From Polaribacter marinaquae (GTDB lineage Bacteria; Bacteroidota; Bacteroidia; Flavobacteriales; Flavobacteriaceae): a DNA stretch of 64,000 bases. The notes under the pieces are model-generated. The model saw only the letters and a list, made by a program, of their open reading frames with translations. It was not told the DNA's origin and ran no database searches. The DNA lies in assembly GCF_038019025.1 (NCBI RefSeq), contig NZ_CP150496.1:151501-215500 (forward strand), read 5' to 3'. Position numbers and translations under genes: made by a program. Shown piece after piece: positions 3,988 to 47,206 of this stretch (within the stretch, counting starts at the first letter, position 1; every line of letters starts with the position of its first letter).

Positions 3988-4932
3988 ATGACAAAAGAAA
4001 TAGAAGACAAATTAGAAAAAATACCAATTATAAATATTTTGGTAAAACTCGGTAAGAAAATCAAGATTCCGGGTTTAGAAGGTATGTCTTTATATGATGT
4101 TTTAGAAATGTATTTTATTGGTATTGTAGAAGGGGCTTTAACAACAAGAGCAGGCGGAATTGCATATAGTTTCTTTATGTCAATTTTTCCATTTATGCTA
4201 TTTGTGCTTACTTTAATTCCGTTTTTACCAATAGAAGGTGCTCAAGAAGGTTTATTATCTGTAATTTCTGATGTTTTACCACCAAAAACTTTTGATGCAG
4301 TAGATTCTGTGTTAGTCGATATTATCAAAAATCAATATGGTGGCTTGCTATCATTTGGGTTTATTGGTTCAATATTTTTAATGACAAATGGTGTAAATGC
4401 TATTTTTGGTGGTTTCGAATATTCGTATCATGTTAAAGAAGTAAGAAACGTTTTTCGTTCTTATTTTGTAGCAATGTTAGTATCTATAATTATCGTTTTA
4501 TTTTTACTTGTTACGGTATCTTTAATAATATTTTTCGAATTAATTCTAAAAGACATGGTAACATTAGGTTGGTTAGAAGATAACATTATTTGGATTCAGT
4601 TAGTAAGAGGTTTTATATTTTTATTGATGATATTTTTAACAGTTTCTATGTTATATCATTATGGCGTTAAAGAGGGTAAACATTCTAGGTTTTTTTCTCC
4701 AGGAGCTGTATTTACTACGCTCTTATCAATTTTAACCTTTTATTTATTTAGTTATTATGTAAACGAATTTGCCAAATACAACGAGTTGTATGGTTCTATT
4801 GGTACACTTTTAATATTGATGTTGTTCATTTGGCTAAATGCAATTATACTTTTGCTTGGTTTCGAATTAAACGCTTCTATTTACTCTTTAAGAAGGTTAA
4901 ATAAAACCTTTAGAACACCTAAAAAATTATAA
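3988..4932 (+). CDS. YihY/BrkB-family inner membrane protein
   Basis: A 314-residue integral membrane protein of the YihY/virulence-factor BrkB family (once mistaken for ribonuclease BN). Six hydrophobic segments can be seen between residues about 45 and 300. The family-typical TTRAGGIAYSFFMSIFPF comes before the first of them, a GGLLSFGFIGSIFLM block follows in the middle, and YGSIGTLLILMLFIWLNA with a GFELNA motif sits near the end. The C-terminal tail is basic. Function in the family is poorly known. Last gene of the nadC / pentapeptide / yihY run; 103 bases separate it from hisS. Confidence 0.88.
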   Translation: MTKEIEDKLEKIPIINILVKLGKKIKIPGLEGMSLYDVLEMYFIGIVEGALTTRAGGIAYSFFMSIFPFMLFVLTLIPFLPIEGAQEGLLSVISDVLPPKTFDAVDSVLVDIIKNQYGGLLSFGFIGSIFLMTNGVNAIFGGFEYSYHVKEVRNVFRSYFVAMLVSIIIVLFLLVTVSLIIFFELILKDMVTLGWLEDNIIWIQLVRGFIFLLMIFLTVSMLYHYGVKEGKHSRFFSPGAVFTTLLSILTFYLFSYYVNEFAKYNELYGSIGTLLILMLFIWLNAIILLLGFELNASIYSLRRLNKTFRTPKKL

Positions 4933-5035
4933 CTTTTTCACGATATTTGCACTCGCAATTTTTAATTGAGAATATTTAATTTAAGCAATTGGTTTTGGTA
5001 AAACTGCTAAAACTAAAAACTAAAAACTTTTTTTA

Positions 5036-6403
5036 ATGAAACCAAGCATCCCAAAAGGAACAAGAGATTTTTCGCCAACAGAAGTAGCAAACAGAACGTA
5101 TATCATGAATACGATAAAAACTGCGTTTGAAACTTTTGGATTTCAGCCAATAGAAACACCAAGTTTCGAAAACTCATCAACTTTAATGGGTAAATATGGT
5201 GAAGAAGGAGATAGGCTTATTTTTAAGATTTTAAACTCAGGAGATTTTCTTAAAAAAGCTGACGAAAAACTTTTATCAGAAAAAAATAGTTTAAAAGTTA
5301 CTTCTCAAATATCAGAAAAAGCATTGCGTTATGATTTAACAGTGCCTTTTGCACGTTATGTTGTGCAACATCAAAACGATATTACTTTTCCTTTTAAGCG
5401 TTATCAAGTTCAGCCAGTTTGGAGAGCAGATAGACCGCAAAAAGGAAGATTTAGAGAGTTTTTTCAATGTGATGCAGATGTTGTTGGTAGTAAATCTTTA
5501 TGGCAAGAAGTTGAGTTTGTACAATTATATGATGCTGTTTTTAGCGAACTAGGTTTGGCAAAAACAACTATAAAAATGAATAACAGAAAAATACTTTCTG
5601 GTATTGCAGAGGTAATTGGCGCTCAAGATAAATTAATAGATTTTACGGTTGCTTTAGATAAATTAGACAAAATTGGTAAAGATGGTGTTGTAAAAGAAAT
5701 GTTATCTAAAGGAATTACCGAAGATGCTATCGAAAAAGTACAACCATTATTCGATTTTTCTGGTTCTAATATAGATAAATTAACTTCTTTAGAAGCAATG
5801 TTGGCTTCTTCTGTAGAAGGAACAAACGGAGTAGAAGAGTTGCGTTTTGTAATAGATTCTATTGAAGGTTTAGGTTTAGAAACTGCTAACTTAGAAATAG
5901 ATGTAACTTTAGCTAGAGGTTTAAATTATTACACAGGTGCAATTTTTGAAGTTGCAGCACCAGAAGGCGTAAAAATGGGTTCTATTGGCGGTGGAGGAAG
6001 ATATGATGATTTAACAGGGATCTTTGGTTTAAAAGATGTTTCTGGAGTTGGTATTTCTTTCGGATTAGATAGAATTTACTTAGTATTAGAAGAATTAGGA
6101 TTATTTAAATCTGTAGATTTACCAAAACCTAAGGTTGTTTTTCTAAATTTTGAAGCAGAGACGGATTTGTTAAAAATGAAAGCTATTAAAGAATTGAGAA
6201 ATCACAATATCAAATCAGAATTTTATCCAGATTTAGGTGAAAGTAATAAGGCGCAAAAACGACAATGGAAATACGTAACAAATAGAGCAATAGAATTTGT
6301 TGTTTCTAAAGTTGAGAATGATATTTTTACTTTAAAAAATATGATTTCTGGTGAACAGAATGATGTTTCATTAGAAGAATTAATTTCAGAATTAAAAGCT
6401 TAA
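5036..6403 (+). CDS. hisS: Histidyl-tRNA synthetase
   Basis: Class II aminoacyl-tRNA synthetase that charges tRNA-His. The 455-residue product has motif 1 near the N-terminus (GTRDFSP, then PIETPSFE), motif 2 around RYQVQPVWRADRPQKGRFREF, the two histidine-binding boxes LARGLNYYTGAIFEV and GSIGGGGRYDDL, and motif 3 GVGISFGLDRI. The C-terminal anticodon-binding domain starts near residue 365. Compared with the E. coli type it has an insert after the first box (around residues 55-95), which I believe is usual in Bacteroidota. The upstream 103 bases are A-rich with short direct repeats and show only an imperfect -7 box near 4943. Confidence 0.97.
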   Translation: MKPSIPKGTRDFSPTEVANRTYIMNTIKTAFETFGFQPIETPSFENSSTLMGKYGEEGDRLIFKILNSGDFLKKADEKLLSEKNSLKVTSQISEKALRYDLTVPFARYVVQHQNDITFPFKRYQVQPVWRADRPQKGRFREFFQCDADVVGSKSLWQEVEFVQLYDAVFSELGLAKTTIKMNNRKILSGIAEVIGAQDKLIDFTVALDKLDKIGKDGVVKEMLSKGITEDAIEKVQPLFDFSGSNIDKLTSLEAMLASSVEGTNGVEELRFVIDSIEGLGLETANLEIDVTLARGLNYYTGAIFEVAAPEGVKMGSIGGGGRYDDLTGIFGLKDVSGVGISFGLDRIYLVLEELGLFKSVDLPKPKVVFLNFEAETDLLKMKAIKELRNHNIKSEFYPDLGESNKAQKRQWKYVTNRAIEFVVSKVENDIFTLKNMISGEQNDVSLEELISELKA

Positions 6404-6463
6404 TAAATTATAGTTAGATAGTTTATATTTATTAAGAAATTAAGATAATACGTTGCAAAGACG

Positions 6464-6471
6464 TAAATTTG
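6464..6471 (+). promoter_or_regulatory. Promoter -7 box of folE
   Basis: TAAATTTG, an exact match to the Bacteroidota -7 consensus, 19 bases before the folE ATG at 6491. A clear -33 TTG at the right distance is not visible. Confidence 0.5.
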
Positions 6472-6490
6472 CACTATAATTAAGAATGAA

Positions 6491-7177
6491 ATGTTTGAAT
6501 TGAACAGCAAAATGAATGACGAAAGAATTGAAGATTTAGGAGAAAATCACGTGGCAACATCTGCAGAAAACCCTGTAAGACCAGATGCTTTTGATATTTC
6601 TAACGAAGAAAAAATAGCAAAGATAGAAGAAAGTGTTAAAGATATTCTATACACTCTTGGTATGGATTTAACAGATGATAGCATGCAAGGAACTCCTAAA
6701 AGAGTAGCAAAAGCATTTGTTAATGAAATGTTTATGGGCTTAGATCCTAAAAACAAGCCAAAAGCTTCTACATTCGATAATAACTACAATTATGGTGAAA
6801 TGCTAGTTGAAAAAAACATTGTTGTTTATTCTACTTGCGAGCACCACTTGTTACCAATTATTGGTAGAGCTCATGTTGCTTATATTTCTGACGGTAAAGT
6901 AATTGGTCTTTCTAAAATGAATAGAATTGTTGAGTATTTTGCAAAAAGACCACAAGTGCAAGAACGTTTAACTATGCAAATAGTTCAGGCAATGCAAGAA
7001 GCATTAGGTACAGACGATGTTGCTTGTGTAATAGATGCAAAACATTTGTGTGTAAACTCAAGAGGAATTAAAGATATCGAAAGTTCTACTGTAACTGCAG
7101 AATTTGGCGGAAAGTTTAACGAAAAAGAAACAAAAAGAGAGTTTTTAGACTACCTTAAAATGGATACTAAATTCTAA
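6491..7177 (+). CDS. folE: GTP cyclohydrolase I
   Basis: Converts GTP to 7,8-dihydroneopterin triphosphate, first step of tetrahydrofolate and pterin synthesis. The 228-residue product has the zinc site: Cys116 and His119 in STCEHHLLP, and Cys187 in KHLCVNSRGI. It also has the GKVIGLSKMNRIVEYFAKRP block that lines the active site. The N-terminal 35 residues are a poorly conserved extension, so the exact start (6491 or the Met eight codons later) is uncertain. A strong bidirectional terminator follows and separates it from the convergent secA. Confidence 0.96.
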   Translation: MFELNSKMNDERIEDLGENHVATSAENPVRPDAFDISNEEKIAKIEESVKDILYTLGMDLTDDSMQGTPKRVAKAFVNEMFMGLDPKNKPKASTFDNNYNYGEMLVEKNIVVYSTCEHHLLPIIGRAHVAYISDGKVIGLSKMNRIVEYFAKRPQVQERLTMQIVQAMQEALGTDDVACVIDAKHLCVNSRGIKDIESSTVTAEFGGKFNEKETKREFLDYLKMDTKF

Positions 7178-41899: not shown

Positions 41900-42100
41900 A
41901 TGAAAAACACTTTAAAAGTACAAAGAGCTATTTTAAATTTAACTCAAGACGATTTAGCAAAAGCAATTGGTGTTTCTAGGCAAACTATAAACTCTATAGA
42001 AAAAAATAGGTATGTGCCTTCTACAGTTTTGTCTTTAAAGTTGTCTAAAGTGTTTAAGATACCTGTAAATGAATTTTTTACGTTAGAAGAATCAGATTAG
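41900..42100 (+). CDS. Small XRE-family transcriptional regulator
   Basis: A 66-residue protein that is essentially one Cro/CI helix-turn-helix: KVQRAILNLTQDDLAKAIGVSRQTINSIEKNRYVPS, with the recognition helix at SRQTINSIEKNRY. It belongs to the YozG-like group of short regulators that sit behind a membrane protein gene and often control their own pair. One base separates it from the membrane gene. Its last 4 bases overlap the end of the convergent TolC gene. Confidence 0.9.
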   Translation: MKNTLKVQRAILNLTQDDLAKAIGVSRQTINSIEKNRYVPSTVLSLKLSKVFKIPVNEFFTLEESD

Positions 42101-43500
42101 TTATCGTTAATAGTAAAAACTGCTTCTTTAAATAGTTTTGCTTTCGTTTTAAAGAATTTGTTTTCTAATTTGATAGCTTTTAACTGCGCATCAATAAATT
42201 TTTCTTCTCTATAATTCACTAAGAATAAAGAGCTTTCTCCTAAGAAAAACTTTCTTTCTTCTGCTTTTAATAAAACATTATAATCTCTTACTATGGCATC
42301 TGTAAAGTTATTTTGATTATCAAAAGAATCTAATTCTAATAACAAACTATTCAATTTGTTTTTTATGGTGACTTTAGCAGTTTTAGCTTCTAACTGTTGA
42401 TCTTGTAATTTTATTTTAGCTAATTTTAAATCACCTCTTTCTTTTCTGATAAATATTGGAAAACTAAAATTTAAACCAGCTTTGTAATTCGATGAATTAA
42501 AAGAATTAATTTGATTTCCATCCGCAGAAATAAAATTATACTGAATATCTATTTTTGGAAGTAAATTATTCTTTTTTAAACGCTTTTCTACTATTAAACT
42601 TTTTACCTTAAAGTCTAACGCTTTTATTTTAGGATGATTTTCGATATCGAAATCTTCTTGATTAAATAAAGCTATATTAAATGTTTTATCAACAGAGTTT
42701 TTTGCTTCTAAATCCGGAATTATATTTTCTTTTAACTCGATAGGTGTGTTGTTATTTAGCCACAAAAAATTAGACAATTCTAAAGATGCTTTGGTATAGT
42801 ATATTGCAGATTTTTCTAAATTTAATTTTCTTGAGTTTAATGTTATACCTGCTTCTAAAGTATCTATAGCTGGTTTTTCACCTTCTTGAAAAGCTCTTTT
42901 AGTTCCTTCAAATCTAATTCTTGCATTTTCTAAGAAAGAAGTAAAAACTAATTTTTCTTTATATGCTTTTAACCAATTAAAGTAACTTAATGAAGCATCA
43001 AAAAGAATTTTATTTACCAATATTTGTTGTTCTTCTTTTGCTTGATTTACATAATATTTTGCTTGTTTTAAAGCAGCCATTCTTTTATTAGTAAGTAAAC
43101 CCTTAGCTAAAGATACAGAAACACCTGCACTGTACAAACCATCTAGTGGTACATTGTTTTCTGGATTCAAAAATAAACCATCATTTTTTTCGAAATTAGC
43201 TTTAAATTCTACTCCGTACCAAGTTGGTATTTTAAAAGAACTATTTAATTTGTTGTAATATTCTTTTTCTTTGAATAGTTTTTTGTCAAAATCTACTTCT
43301 ATCTTGGGGTCAAATGCACCTCTAGCTTTTAACAATTTAGCTTCACTAGAATTTAAAACTAAATTAGCTTGTCTTACTATTGGATGGTAATTTTTAACGT
43401 AACTTAAAAACTCTGATAAAGTTAGTTGATTGCTAATTTCTTCTTGTGCATAATTGGTAGAAAAAAATAACATTGTTAGTATTAGTAAAAACTTCTTCAT
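42097..43500 (-). CDS. TolC-family outer-membrane efflux protein
   Basis: Outer-membrane channel-tunnel of the exporter encoded here. 467 residues with signal peptide (KKFLLILTMLFFSTNYAQ) and the two-fold repeat of TolC-like proteins: long helices rich in Leu, Lys and Glu (around 140-230 and 330-450) between strand segments (GLYSAGVSVSLAKGLL; AGLNFSFPIF). It is the last gene of the tetR-ABC-hlyD-tolC operon and starts 4 bases after the HlyD gene. It carries cargo from the periplasmic adaptor to outside; the cargo is unknown. Confidence 0.9.
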   Translation of the reverse strand: MKKFLLILTMLFFSTNYAQEEISNQLTLSEFLSYVKNYHPIVRQANLVLNSSEAKLLKARGAFDPKIEVDFDKKLFKEKEYYNKLNSSFKIPTWYGVEFKANFEKNDGLFLNPENNVPLDGLYSAGVSVSLAKGLLTNKRMAALKQAKYYVNQAKEEQQILVNKILFDASLSYFNWLKAYKEKLVFTSFLENARIRFEGTKRAFQEGEKPAIDTLEAGITLNSRKLNLEKSAIYYTKASLELSNFLWLNNNTPIELKENIIPDLEAKNSVDKTFNIALFNQEDFDIENHPKIKALDFKVKSLIVEKRLKKNNLLPKIDIQYNFISADGNQINSFNSSNYKAGLNFSFPIFIRKERGDLKLAKIKLQDQQLEAKTAKVTIKNKLNSLLLELDSFDNQNNFTDAIVRDYNVLLKAEERKFFLGESSLFLVNYREEKFIDAQLKAIKLENKFFKTKAKLFKEAVFTINDN

Positions 43501-43504
43501 TGTT

Positions 43505-44860
43505 TTACTTTTTAGTTTCTTTTTTGCTTTTGTTTGTATTTGGTTGATAGTAATTAGGCGGAAAGCTGTTTAACTGTCTCCATAACTCGAACCAAATTGG
43601 TACATCTTCTAATAATGCGATTGTTTTTGCTCCAGAGCCAACCCTAATTGCTTCTGGCCATTTATATTCTCTTTCGTCTGGTGCCAGTAAAACACGGTAT
43701 TTACCGTTGTCACTTATAAAGTTTTCTATTGCAACTACGGTACCACCATATGTACCATAAGATACATTTGGCCATCCAGAAAAAACTATTGCAGGCCAAC
43801 CGTCAAACTGAACTCTTACTTTTTCACCTATGTGTAAAAGCGGTAAATCTATTGGTTTTACATAAGTTTCTACAGCTAAATCATACTTTTCTGGCATAAT
43901 ACCAACTAAAGATTCACCTTCTTTAAAAGTGCCTCCAATTCCTCCTTTAATAGCTTTGTTGATGTATCCATTTTGTGGAGAAGTTACGTATAACAGACTA
44001 TTTCTAACTTTATAGTTGCTATTGCTATTTTCTAATTTAGAGACTTGTGCTTCAGCATCAAAACCATTAGATCTAGCAGTAAACATATCACTTTGTGCTT
44101 TCGAAATTTTATCTGTAAAAGTTGCTTTAATTCTAGATAATTCTAATTTCGCATTAATCACATCATTTTTACTTGCTAGTAATTTATTTTGCTGAGCTAT
44201 TAATTTAGCTTGAGTTTCTTGCAGTTTCAAACGTTTTTGTTCTACATCTACAACAGCTTTTAAACCTTCTTTTTGCAACGTTTCTGTTCTTAAAAACTGC
44301 TTTTCTGCAATAGATAAATTTGTTTTTGCAGCTTGTAAGGCAATACTATCACTTTGTACTTTAAGTTTAGATTGCAAAAGTTTGTTTTGTGATTGAGCAG
44401 TTTTTAAAACTTGCTCGTCTTTTAATGCATTTATTTGTCTTTGTAAAGCATTAGATTTTTGTTGATATGCATTTACAGAAGAATTTTTTGCATTTATTTG
44501 ATTGTTTGTTCTTTCGATTAATCGGTTGTCAAAATAATCACTTTTAATTTCAGAGATTCTTAAAATAGTATCTCCTTTTTTTACATAATCTCCTTCTTTT
44601 ACAAACCATTCTTCAACCCTTCCAGGTATTTGAGATTGTATACTTTGTGGTCTTTGTTCTGGAGTTAATGTGGTAACTAAACCTTGACTAGTAATGTTTT
44701 GCGTCCAAGGTAAAAATAAAAGGATAAAACCAATAATAGCAAAAGCTAACAAAAATTTATTTAAAGATTTGTAGTAGTTTTTAGTAAAAATATCTTTACC
44801 AGATTTAAATCGTTTTAAATCTACTTTATCATTTAATTGATTGTTAGAAATATTTAACAT
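43505..44860 (-). CDS. HlyD-family periplasmic adaptor (membrane fusion protein)
   Basis: A 451-residue adaptor with a short cytoplasmic N-terminus, one membrane helix (about 33-52, FLLAFAIIGFILLFLPW), the lipoyl half-motif GRVEEWFVKEGDYVKKGDTIL, and a long coiled coil (about 115-275). The second lipoyl half and beta-barrel follow (SLLYVTSPQNGYINKAI, GIGGTFKEGESLVGIMP, IGEKVRVQFDGWPAI). It links the ABC protein to the TolC channel. It lies 5 bases after the ABC gene and 4 bases before tolC. Complete. Confidence 0.92.
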   Translation of the reverse strand: MLNISNNQLNDKVDLKRFKSGKDIFTKNYYKSLNKFLLAFAIIGFILLFLPWTQNITSQGLVTTLTPEQRPQSIQSQIPGRVEEWFVKEGDYVKKGDTILRISEIKSDYFDNRLIERTNNQINAKNSSVNAYQQKSNALQRQINALKDEQVLKTAQSQNKLLQSKLKVQSDSIALQAAKTNLSIAEKQFLRTETLQKEGLKAVVDVEQKRLKLQETQAKLIAQQNKLLASKNDVINAKLELSRIKATFTDKISKAQSDMFTARSNGFDAEAQVSKLENSNSNYKVRNSLLYVTSPQNGYINKAIKGGIGGTFKEGESLVGIMPEKYDLAVETYVKPIDLPLLHIGEKVRVQFDGWPAIVFSGWPNVSYGTYGGTVVAIENFISDNGKYRVLLAPDEREYKWPEAIRVGSGAKTIALLEDVPIWFELWRQLNSFPPNYYQPNTNKSKKETKK

Positions 44861-44865
44861 GATTA

Positions 44866-46533
44866 TTAATTTATAGATTTAATTTCTCCTTTTTCTAGAG
44901 TTATTATTTGACTGCATTGTGTTTTCCAACTCTTTTTACTACTTACAACAATTAACGCCCAAGGTCTTCTAGCATCTGTTAAATAGCTAATTATTTTAAC
45001 AGTTTCTTCTAGATTAAATTGATCTAATGGATCTTCTAAGATCATTACTTTTGGCGCTTTTATTATAGATCTTGCTAAAATTATTTTCTTAGCAATTGTA
45101 TAAGACATTTGTTTACCTTCTGGATATAAAACAGTCTCTAATCCGTTAGGTTGTTCTTTTAAAAATTGATTTAAACCAACAATATCTAAAGCTTCAAAAA
45201 TTGTGTCATCTGTAATTTCTTGATTACCAAAAACTAAATTATTTCTAATAGAGCCTTCAAAAGGTGTTTCATCTGAAAGAGATAAACCTAATTGAGATCT
45301 GTAATGATTAAGGTGTAAGCTATTTAAAGATAAATTATTGATATAAATATTACCTTCTGTGGGTTCTATTACACCAGCAATTAATCTTAAAAGGCTAGAT
45401 TTACCAGCGCCACTTTCTCCGTGTACAAGAATTCTAGATTCTGGTTTTATAGTTAAAGAAATATCTTTAATAATTGGTTTTTTTCTATCTTCTACAGCAT
45501 AAGAAACGTTGTCTAATTCTATAGATAAACCTTTCTTAAAAATTGGTTTTTCACCTTCTTGCGATTCCAATTCTTTATCAACAACTTGTCCTATTTTTTC
45601 TATGGATGTAAGTACATCATAAAAAGACTCTAAGCCAACAATTAATTTTTCTACAGACTGTATTACCAATAAAATGATAATTTCTGCAGCAACAAACTGT
45701 CCTATATTCATTTCTTGATTAAGAACTAATGCACCACCAATTAATAATAAACTAGCAGTAACAATAACTTTAAAGCCTATCATTTGGCTAAATTGTAAAA
45801 TTAAAATTCTAAAGTGATTTTCTCTAGCTTCTAAATATTTACTTACCAAATCGTCATTTTTCTTTAATGCTAAATTTGTATTACCAGATAGTTTAAAACT
45901 TACAACGGTTCTTGCAACTTCTTGAATCCAATGGGCAACTTTATATTTAATTTTAGATTCTTTTAAACTAGTTTCTAAACCTCTTTGTGCAGTAAATTTA
46001 AAAACGATATAAATTAGAAGTAATAAAAGAATGCCAAAAATTATAAAGAAAGGATGATAAAAAGAAAGCAATATTAAAGCAAATACTATTTGTAATAAAG
46101 CGGTAGGTACATCAATTAATATTTTAGACAATCCTTTTTGTATTGTTAATGTATCAAAGAATCTATTTGCTAATTCTGGCGGATAATTATTACGTAGCTC
46201 ATTCATTTTAATTTTAGGAAACCTATAGCTTAACTCAAAAGAAGCTCTAGTAAAAATTCTTTGTTGAATTGTTTCTATAATTCTTAATTGCATTAATTGC
46301 AAAGCGCCAGAAAATATAACGCCAATTGTAACAACAATAACTAAAATTACCCAAGAAGTAGATATTTGAGCTCCTTGAATTAAATTAATAATTGCCTGTA
46401 TTCCTAAAGGTAATGATAGTGCTACAACACCACCAAATATGGCATAATAGAAAATTTGAAAAATATCTTTTTTTTCTAGTTTTAAAAGTCCCACAAAACG
46501 TCTCCATGGTGTTATTTTATCTGTAGTATTCAT
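44866..46533 (-). CDS. ABC exporter, permease fused to a degenerate ATPase domain
   Basis: A 555-residue half-transporter of the type-I-secretion or multidrug kind. A six-helix membrane domain spans about residues 25-310, without an N-terminal C39 peptidase. The nucleotide-binding domain is about 336-555. Walker A is intact (GESGAGKSS, 372-380). The other motifs are not: the Q-loop Gln is Ser420, the LSGGQ signature is MSYTI (476-480), Walker B ends in Glu500-Asp501 instead of Asp-Glu (MILED), and the H-loop His is Ser (531-532). So ATP may bind, but hydrolysis looks impaired. It sits between tetR (1 base) and hlyD (5 bases), where a working exporter ATPase is expected. The reading frame is otherwise clean, so this is not a decaying gene. 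Confidence 0.88.
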   Translation of the reverse strand: MNTTDKITPWRRFVGLLKLEKKDIFQIFYYAIFGGVVALSLPLGIQAIINLIQGAQISTSWVILVIVVTIGVIFSGALQLMQLRIIETIQQRIFTRASFELSYRFPKIKMNELRNNYPPELANRFFDTLTIQKGLSKILIDVPTALLQIVFALILLSFYHPFFIIFGILLLLLIYIVFKFTAQRGLETSLKESKIKYKVAHWIQEVARTVVSFKLSGNTNLALKKNDDLVSKYLEARENHFRILILQFSQMIGFKVIVTASLLLIGGALVLNQEMNIGQFVAAEIIILLVIQSVEKLIVGLESFYDVLTSIEKIGQVVDKELESQEGEKPIFKKGLSIELDNVSYAVEDRKKPIIKDISLTIKPESRILVHGESGAGKSSLLRLIAGVIEPTEGNIYINNLSLNSLHLNHYRSQLGLSLSDETPFEGSIRNNLVFGNQEITDDTIFEALDIVGLNQFLKEQPNGLETVLYPEGKQMSYTIAKKIILARSIIKAPKVMILEDPLDQFNLEETVKIISYLTDARRPWALIVVSSKKSWKTQCSQIITLEKGEIKSIN

Positions 46534-46534
46534 T

Positions 46535-47206
46535 TTATTTTAGTGTGTTTTTAACAAGTTGCGTAAAGAAACGAGTAGGTGTGGCACCTTTTTTACTATT
46601 TGTAATAGACGGAAAATGTTCTTTTAAAAAATGTTGATGCAAACCACCTTCTAAAATTGTGCTCGATAGGCTAAGTGCAAATTCATAATCTGGTTTTAAA
46701 GCTAATATCATTTCTTTTATTCTTGTTATTAATCTTTTGTAGACTTCAAAATAACCTTCTTTATTATCTGTATCTACTTCTTTTGTTAAGAAAGATTTAG
46801 AACTTTCATTTACAATTATTTTATATAAAATAGCTTCATTTATATGAGAATAATTACTGTCTAACGATACCGTTCTAGTAATTACCTCTATTGCTTTTTC
46901 TAGTTTTAATTCATTGTCTGATATGCTAAATGTTTCTATAACTAATTGATATTCTAACCAAGCCCAATACCAAGACGATAAATACAATAGTAATTTATGT
47001 TTGCTTTCAAAATATCTATAAATAGAACTTTCATTAGACTGTATCTTTGTTCCTAGTTTTTTAAAGGTAAAGTTTTCGAAGCCAATTTCGTCTATTAGAA
47101 GAATACTATTTTCAATTATTTTTTTACCTAAGTTCGAGGTTTCTGGATCTTTAATAAAAATCTTATCGGGTACTGTAATTTTTAATATTGATAATAAGTT
47201 TTTCAT
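46535..47206 (-). CDS. TetR-family regulator of the export operon
   Basis: A 223-residue regulator with an N-terminal TetR-like helix-turn-helix (NSILLIDEIGFENFTFKKLG, then QSNESSIYRYFESKHKLLLYL, the recognition and helix-4 block) and a helical ligand domain without clear relatives. It is the first gene of the operon, 1 base before the ABC gene. A 17-base inverted repeat at 47233-47249, right next to its -7 box, is the likely operator, so the protein probably represses its own operon until an inducer binds. Confidence 0.88.
   Translation of the reverse strand: MKNLLSILKITVPDKIFIKDPETSNLGKKIIENSILLIDEIGFENFTFKKLGTKIQSNESSIYRYFESKHKLLLYLSSWYWAWLEYQLVIETFSISDNELKLEKAIEVITRTVSLDSNYSHINEAILYKIIVNESSKSFLTKEVDTDNKEGYFEVYKRLITRIKEMILALKPDYEFALSLSSTILEGGLHQHFLKEHFPSITNSKKGATPTRFFTQLVKNTLK

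Follow-up and report, generated by a model that had tools for sequence, protein, structure and literature searches.

Three inner-membrane families, ABC, RND and MFS, are named for tripartite systems in the abstract of a review (PMC8277102). Within the papers cited here, the function of an ABC-exporter membrane domain freed of its nucleotide-binding domain (NBD) has so far rested on two engineered proteins, LmrA-MD and MsbA-MD, and on one natural importer family, SbmA. Purified LmrA-MD is reported to catalyze ethidium-proton symport, and E314 in TM6 is needed for the dependence on the pH gradient (PMC2704374). MsbA-MD mediates ethidium efflux and transport driven by the pH gradient, at a lower efficiency than full-length MsbA (PMC4979069). 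SbmA is proton-driven and was proposed to descend from a full-length ABC transporter after loss of its NBDs and coupling helices; SbmA/BacA proteins are importers bearing additional TM0 helices as well as a glutamate ladder, in which acidic residues line the path (PMC13316013). In degenerate-site exporters such as ABCB2/B3 (TAP), MRP1 and Pdr5, substitutions are found in the signature, Walker B and the H-loop (PMC7756269).

We analyzed a 64,000-nucleotide stretch of the Polaribacter marinaquae genome, hereafter called the window, which carries an operon with the order TetR, ABC, HlyD and TolC-type outer-membrane channel (OEP), all four genes being on the minus strand (Table 1). The ABC protein, hereafter the window protein, combines an exporter membrane domain of six helices with an NBD in a single chain. 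From the sequence, an earlier note had claimed that Walker A is kept in an intact frame while the Q-loop Gln, the LSGGQ signature, the residue order of Walker B and the H-loop His are lost. The alignment confirmed each of these losses and the retention of Walker A, and the intact frame was found again (Table 1); residue 531, beside the H-loop column, is likewise Ser. No second ABC gene is present in the operon.

Table 1. Features of the operon and of the ABC-exporter-type protein (window coordinates).
Feature	Position	Strand	Basis
TetR-family regulator, first gene of the operon	46535..47206	-	PF00440 match
ABC-exporter-type protein, 555 aa, with catalytically degenerate NBD	44866..46533	-	ATG start, frame intact
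HlyD-type periplasmic adaptor	43505..44860	-	TIGR01843 101.4 bits, under its cut-off of 208.65
TolC/OEP-type outer-membrane channel	42097..43500	-	PF02321 125.6 bits
Transmembrane domain, residues 1-320, the portion retained in NBD-less relatives	45574..46533	-	PF00664 36.5 bits
Degenerate NBD, residues 326-555	44869..45558	-	PF00005 72 bits
Walker A, residues 372-379, retained (GESGAGKSS at 372-380)	45397..45420	-	alignment
Q-loop position 420, Ser replaces Gln	45274..45276	-	alignment
Signature position 476-480, MSYTI replaces LSGGQ	45094..45108	-	alignment
Walker B positions 500-501, Glu-Asp replaces Asp-Glu	45031..45036	-	alignment
H-loop position 532, Ser replaces His	44938..44940	-	alignment
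Lys255 in TM5	45769..45771	-	K/R in 193/193 family members, 0/23 ordinary exporters
Glu284 in TM6	45682..45684	-	D/E in 192/193 family members, 0/23 ordinary exporters
Glu295-Lys296 in TM6	45646..45651	-	D/E295 in 191/193, basic 296 in 189/193 family members

The window protein was compared with described exporters. It scored under the cut-off of the curated NCBIfam exporter families in all 25 rows listed out of 162, with 200.2 bits against a cut-off of 693.1 for the LssB family; it thus differs from the type I secretion permease/ATPases (HlyB, LssB, PrtD) both by these scores and by the missing catalytic motifs. In Pfam, only PF00664 and PF00005 were matched and no C39 peptidase was found at E 0.001, which sets it apart from PCAT1 and the C39 bacteriocin exporters with their N-terminal peptidase domain. 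When the membrane domain alone was searched against the PDB, the sequence matches were all weak, and an unrelated pannexin (0.055) came ahead of PrtD (E 0.13) and PCAT1 (E 0.43-0.85). Neither the window protein nor an NBD-less relative (L140) matched the SbmA/BacA Pfam family at E 0.001, and no paper describing the family by its title or the start of its abstract was found within the open-licence PMC literature. Its ancestry is probably that of a type I secretion-like ABC exporter.

The distribution of the catalytic motifs was determined in 79 near sequences, i.e. the window protein and 78 of 80 loci (L035, which is partial, and L070, which has no full frame, were left out). The Q-loop Gln, the signature, the DE of Walker B and the H-loop His are each kept in 0/79, whereas Walker A is kept in 68/79, its Lys being Arg in the other 11. 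The earlier note had proposed to look for the same substitutions in homologues together with hlyD and tolC, and had named normal motifs in close relatives as evidence to the contrary; none of the 79 sequences keeps any of the four lost motifs, and HlyD and OEP genes adjoin in all near loci with room for them. Wider searches gave 114 distinct far full-length members (four duplicate far loci were removed, bringing the total from 197 to 193). Among these 114, Gln was found in 13, a signature-like S.G in 7, DE in 17, His in 17 and Walker A in 100. All five motifs occur together in 0/193 distinct full-length members, and 159/193 lack all four of the motifs lost in the window protein. As a positive control, the same columns were read in 23 ordinary exporters (19 of 20 loci from other genomes, L253 being left out for want of a usable frame, and four from the window's own genome): 21 have 5/5 motifs and two (L263 and L082) have 4/5. 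These data demonstrate that the motif loss is not chance. Seven distant members keep four of the five motifs, so that ATP hydrolysis may still be present in the oldest branch of the family. Some trace of hydrolysis could persist with the reversed Glu-Asp of Walker B. In one full-length member (L148, genome G045, 4618-6273) Walker A is unrecognizable, and this protein looks like an apparent intermediate preceding NBD loss. Many distant members of 700-840 aa carry 150-260 extra N-terminal residues, for which no Pfam match was found in the four scanned (L154, L162, L164 and L166).

An ordinary exporter decaying as a pseudogene would also lose its motifs. In order to evaluate selection, dN/dS was calculated with our own Nei-Gojobori script on 13 close full-length pairs out of 17 pairs; three pairs without NBD were left out, as was one membrane domain-HlyD fusion pair, because its second stretch lay in HlyD. 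In these 13 pairs dN/dS of the NBD was 0.014-0.148; for the membrane domain, finite values came from 11 pairs and were 0.007-0.053, several dS values being above 1. Purifying selection still acts on the NBD of the window's lineage, so this domain has some role. With an intact frame, relatives across the family and dN/dS far under 1, a sequencing error or a pseudogene is ruled out; conservation throughout the family and operon synteny also speak against decay, to which we give practically no credence. The view of the earlier note that the changes were selected is upheld by the family-wide conservation, the dN/dS of the NBD and the synteny.

The neighborhood of the gene is strongly conserved. 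In the near loci with room for the neighbor, HlyD comes next on the same strand in 75/75, OEP is found in 73/73 and TetR lies upstream on the same strand in 72/76. For the far full-length loci, HlyD is next in 69/71 and OEP in 67/69; one far locus (L146) is without HlyD, and in another (L167) HlyD is present with an overlap exceeding our rule. TetR is found upstream on the same strand in 61/118 far full-length loci and divergent in 10 more. Loci that encode only the membrane domain (TMD-only, see below) have HlyD directly downstream in 22/22 and OEP in 21/21 with room, while TetR is on the same strand in 0/22 and divergent in 5/22 (L215-L219), the other 17 having no adjacent TetR. Hence, TetR linkage is less faithful than HlyD/OEP linkage across loci.

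Some relatives have no NBD. At E 1e-60 or better, a match was obtained in 75/296 genomes of a phylum-wide sample and in 81/196 genomes of the order; the membrane domain alone was matched in 4 of the 75, and in 3 of the 81 it was matched within a frame of about 760 aa. Three family-level searches yielded TMD-only candidate genomes, called by coverage and open frame from the listed rows: 25 among the 101 matching of 120 genomes, 36 among 111 of 121, and 15 among 46 of 121. We inspected 23 short-form loci, and 22 of them encode a membrane-domain-only protein with HlyD directly next. The remaining one (L213, genome G650, 4346-6540) was rejected as TMD-only, since its NBD is encoded by a separate, downstream, overlapping frame. 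It looks like a split or frameshifted gene, and other matching members of its genus have long full frames; it counts neither as a TMD-only locus nor towards the changes below, and was grouped with the NBD-bearing rows in the AU test. In genome G283 (L147), the family gene is also spread over two frames. A homologue search with one TMD-only protein, covering candidates up to 1.75 times the query length, gave proteins of 316-372 aa among the best 120 listed, none of them listed with PF00005. The named ones among these 120 are mostly from Spirosoma, with others from Larkinella, Fibrella and Fibrisoma; a few metagenome bins with other labels were also present. Two genomes (G636 and G604; L221, L222, L223, L233 and L234) carry a full-length copy together with one or two TMD-only copies, each copy having its own hlyD and OEP next to it.

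A second NBD-less form was found in small genomes of another lineage (two loci), where membrane domain and HlyD form a single fused protein of about 750 aa. Thirteen such proteins of 710-754 aa were listed, with 45-100% identity over 94-100% of the query, as well as one of 510 aa (P0249), a piece that was taken out of the alignment; one listed fusion is named as from a Schleiferiaceae bacterium. A fusion protein (P0241) matched only HlyD-type families in Pfam (E 0.001). An AlphaFold2 model of the fusion (13 sequences) had a mean pLDDT of 63.4 and was too poor for use. In the tree, a neighbor of the fusions (P0255) has a tail of about 220 residues without a Pfam NBD match, in which no Walker A was seen by eye. 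A 739-aa relative (P0263) sits on a long branch, and from this protein the family may range beyond Bacteroidota.

The membrane-domain tree (141 rows after thinning; a quick method without bootstrap, with a midpoint root for drawing) places the TMD-only rows in one group with support 100, nested among NBD-bearing relatives, and the fusion rows in a separate group, also with support 100. NBD loss amounts to two changes on this tree, the split gene L213 being left out. When all 29 NBD-less rows were forced into one clade, the constraint was rejected (AU p 0.005). As far as this tree goes, the NBD was thus lost outright twice, the membrane domain, HlyD and OEP staying together.

The earlier note had offered three options for the degenerate protein: an exporter driven by another force, a half-unit partnered with an active ATPase from elsewhere, or a channel or regulator. 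Under the second, ATP hydrolysis would be supplied in trans by a canonical half-exporter or by a borrowed stand-alone ABC ATPase. It is well established that an exporter may combine a degenerate site with a working one (PMC7756269), and the NBD of the window protein shows the same kinds of substitution as those described in that paper. The window's own genome holds at least four other half-exporters, three with 5/5 motifs and one with 4/5, which could act as NBD lenders, and cross-pairing is possible in G636 and G604, which carry both types of copy. However, those degenerate-site exporters keep one working site, whereas here the operon has no partner gene and some relatives are entirely NBD-less. 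A heterodimer-type partner completing a canonical site is absent next door, the adjacent gene being HlyD at all near loci with room. A dedicated neighboring partner of the NBD-less proteins was also rejected, no neighbor family recurring in more than 3/24 NBD-less loci. At L163, L166 and L168, in three genomes of one taxonomic family, a frame of 972-1032 aa with ABC-like stretches, UvrA-like by its size, adjoins the operon.

A split-off NBD was then sought in whole genomes with a profile built from eight family members. In 11/11 NBD-less genomes the best match reached 161.9-181 bits, within frames of 583-1008 aa, and no relocated NBD was found above background. A first control with four NBD-bearing genomes gave 309.5-367.3 bits; because their rows had fed the profile, eight independent NBD-bearing genomes were added, in which the family NBD came top (204.6-338.6 bits) and no other match exceeded 180.8. 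Stand-alone NBD frames reached at most 106.4 bits among the listed rows of NBD-less genomes, against 99.9 in NBD-bearing ones. This result argues against a split-off family NBD in the NBD-less genomes, with a margin (204.6 versus about 181 bits) narrow enough for a very diverged one to hide; a generic NBD might also be borrowed. The intracellular loop where an NBD would dock points in the same direction. Of ten segments, ICL2 (residues 205-218) is the sole one whose conservation drops from full-length rows (0.63) to TMD-only rows (0.56). In the fusions it consists of 57% gaps, and conservation is reduced relative to full-length rows in ICL1 and in the stretch preceding ICL2 as well; since the compared sets differ in diversity, these values are only suggestive of a relaxation of ICL2 once the NBD is gone. 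Decay of the expected NBD contact does not suit a partner supplied in trans. Together, these data weaken the pairing option, which we regard as distinctly unlikely.

The earlier note had called the membrane domain normal-looking, which holds only in part. Four charges in TM5 and TM6 (Table 1) are near-invariant in the family whether or not the NBD is present, and are for the most part missing from ordinary exporters, of which 1 of 23 is acidic at 295, 6 are basic at 296 and 3 are basic at 284. Among 142 TMD-only rows (141 distinct; 120 of them drawn from the best matches of one search), E284 and K296 are present in 142 each, K/R255 and D/E295 in 141 each. The fusion rows have all four charges (255, 284, 295 and 296) in 14/14, with E at 284 in every one. 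TM5 and TM6 are highly conserved as a whole. These charges could be structural salt bridges. They also bear on the possibility that the system is a passive or gated conduit, in which the membrane domain would serve as an assembly platform or gate for HlyD/OEP with no energy coupling, substrates running down their gradient or being loaded from the periplasm. The fusions and the TMD-only proteins suit such a scaffold role. However, near-invariant charges within the membrane, together with strongly conserved TM5 and TM6, point beyond a scaffold role without proving coupling; we hold both versions of the conduit to be unlikely, while giving them some weight.

Retention of Walker A in most full-length members, near and far, and purifying selection on the NBD are what would be expected from an ATP-binding regulator, in which Walker A would bind ATP without hydrolysis and set the open or closed state, the protein being a sensor and not a pump. 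Against this, the Walker A Lys has become Arg in the 11 near sequences mentioned above and the entire NBD has gone in other relatives, so that ATP binding is not essential to the function of the family. This explanation appears very improbable to us.

Our main reading is that the window protein is the inner-membrane part of a TetR-linked HlyD/TolC tripartite system, ABC-derived and independent of ATP hydrolysis of its own; we put its probability at about 0.6. Of the three options of the earlier note, a drive by another force is the best match, since hlyD and OEP persist in relatives whose NBD disappeared entirely, twice on the tree: where the NBD was dropped while the export genes remained, the exporter is probably powered otherwise. 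The sequences show that the catalytic motifs were lost in most of the family, the NBD being retained in the window's lineage; Walker A was lost in some lineages and the whole NBD in others, HlyD and OEP being kept. The membrane-domain dimer would then run its cycle, or conduct, with no ATP hydrolysis of its own. We favor coupling to an ion gradient via K/R255, E284, E/D295 and K296, which would be the likely coupling or gating residues. The leftover NBD of the window protein may serve as a structural or ATP-sensing dimerization module. TetR linkage suggests small toxic compounds as the substrate class, though TetR is adjacent in only 5/22 TMD-only loci.

Such an ATPase-independent exporter would find its closest parallels in the NBD-free proteins introduced above. 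LmrA-MD and MsbA-MD resemble it as ABC-exporter membrane domains reported to use a proton gradient for transporting ethidium or ions without an NBD, but they are laboratory truncations of active exporters, whereas NBD loss is natural and repeated here. LmrA E314 and E284 are both Glu residues of TM6, likened by helix and not by aligned position. SbmA/BacA proteins (SLiPT) share with the TMD-only relatives the type IV ABC-exporter membrane fold without an NBD (PMC13316013). The present family differs in being operonic with HlyD and OEP and in having graded intermediates from a near-canonical NBD to none; the window protein retains a degenerate NBD, which is absent from its TMD-only relatives. 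In TM6 the acidic residues at 284 and 295 hardly vary here, and proton coupling is putative. By analogy, the family might work like SLiPT without being a member, given the lack of a Pfam match at E 0.001.

The retirement of the ABC ATPase, family-wide and in graded steps inside an HlyD/TolC system, is real in the sequences compared. A further reading, which we hold tentatively and at a little short of even odds, is that an ATP-driven tripartite exporter was naturally and repeatedly converted into an ion-gradient-driven one, the catalytic motifs being lost, then Walker A, then the NBD. In this conversion, the NBD would either vanish, leaving the membrane domain alone, or give way to a direct fusion with HlyD. 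If true, an ABC-derived, secondary-active, TolC-linked exporter would be a new inner-membrane engine beside ABC, RND and MFS, and evolutionary intermediates of the conversion would still be alive within one phylum. The name "ABC transporter ATP-binding protein" carried by some TMD-only entries is a misleading annotation. The family forms a natural, export-side series that leads from a near-canonical NBD to its absence, in which synteny is retained and the loss is repeated. These native proteins make the question of NBD-free exporters testable, and they may represent a new energy class for tripartite envelope systems.
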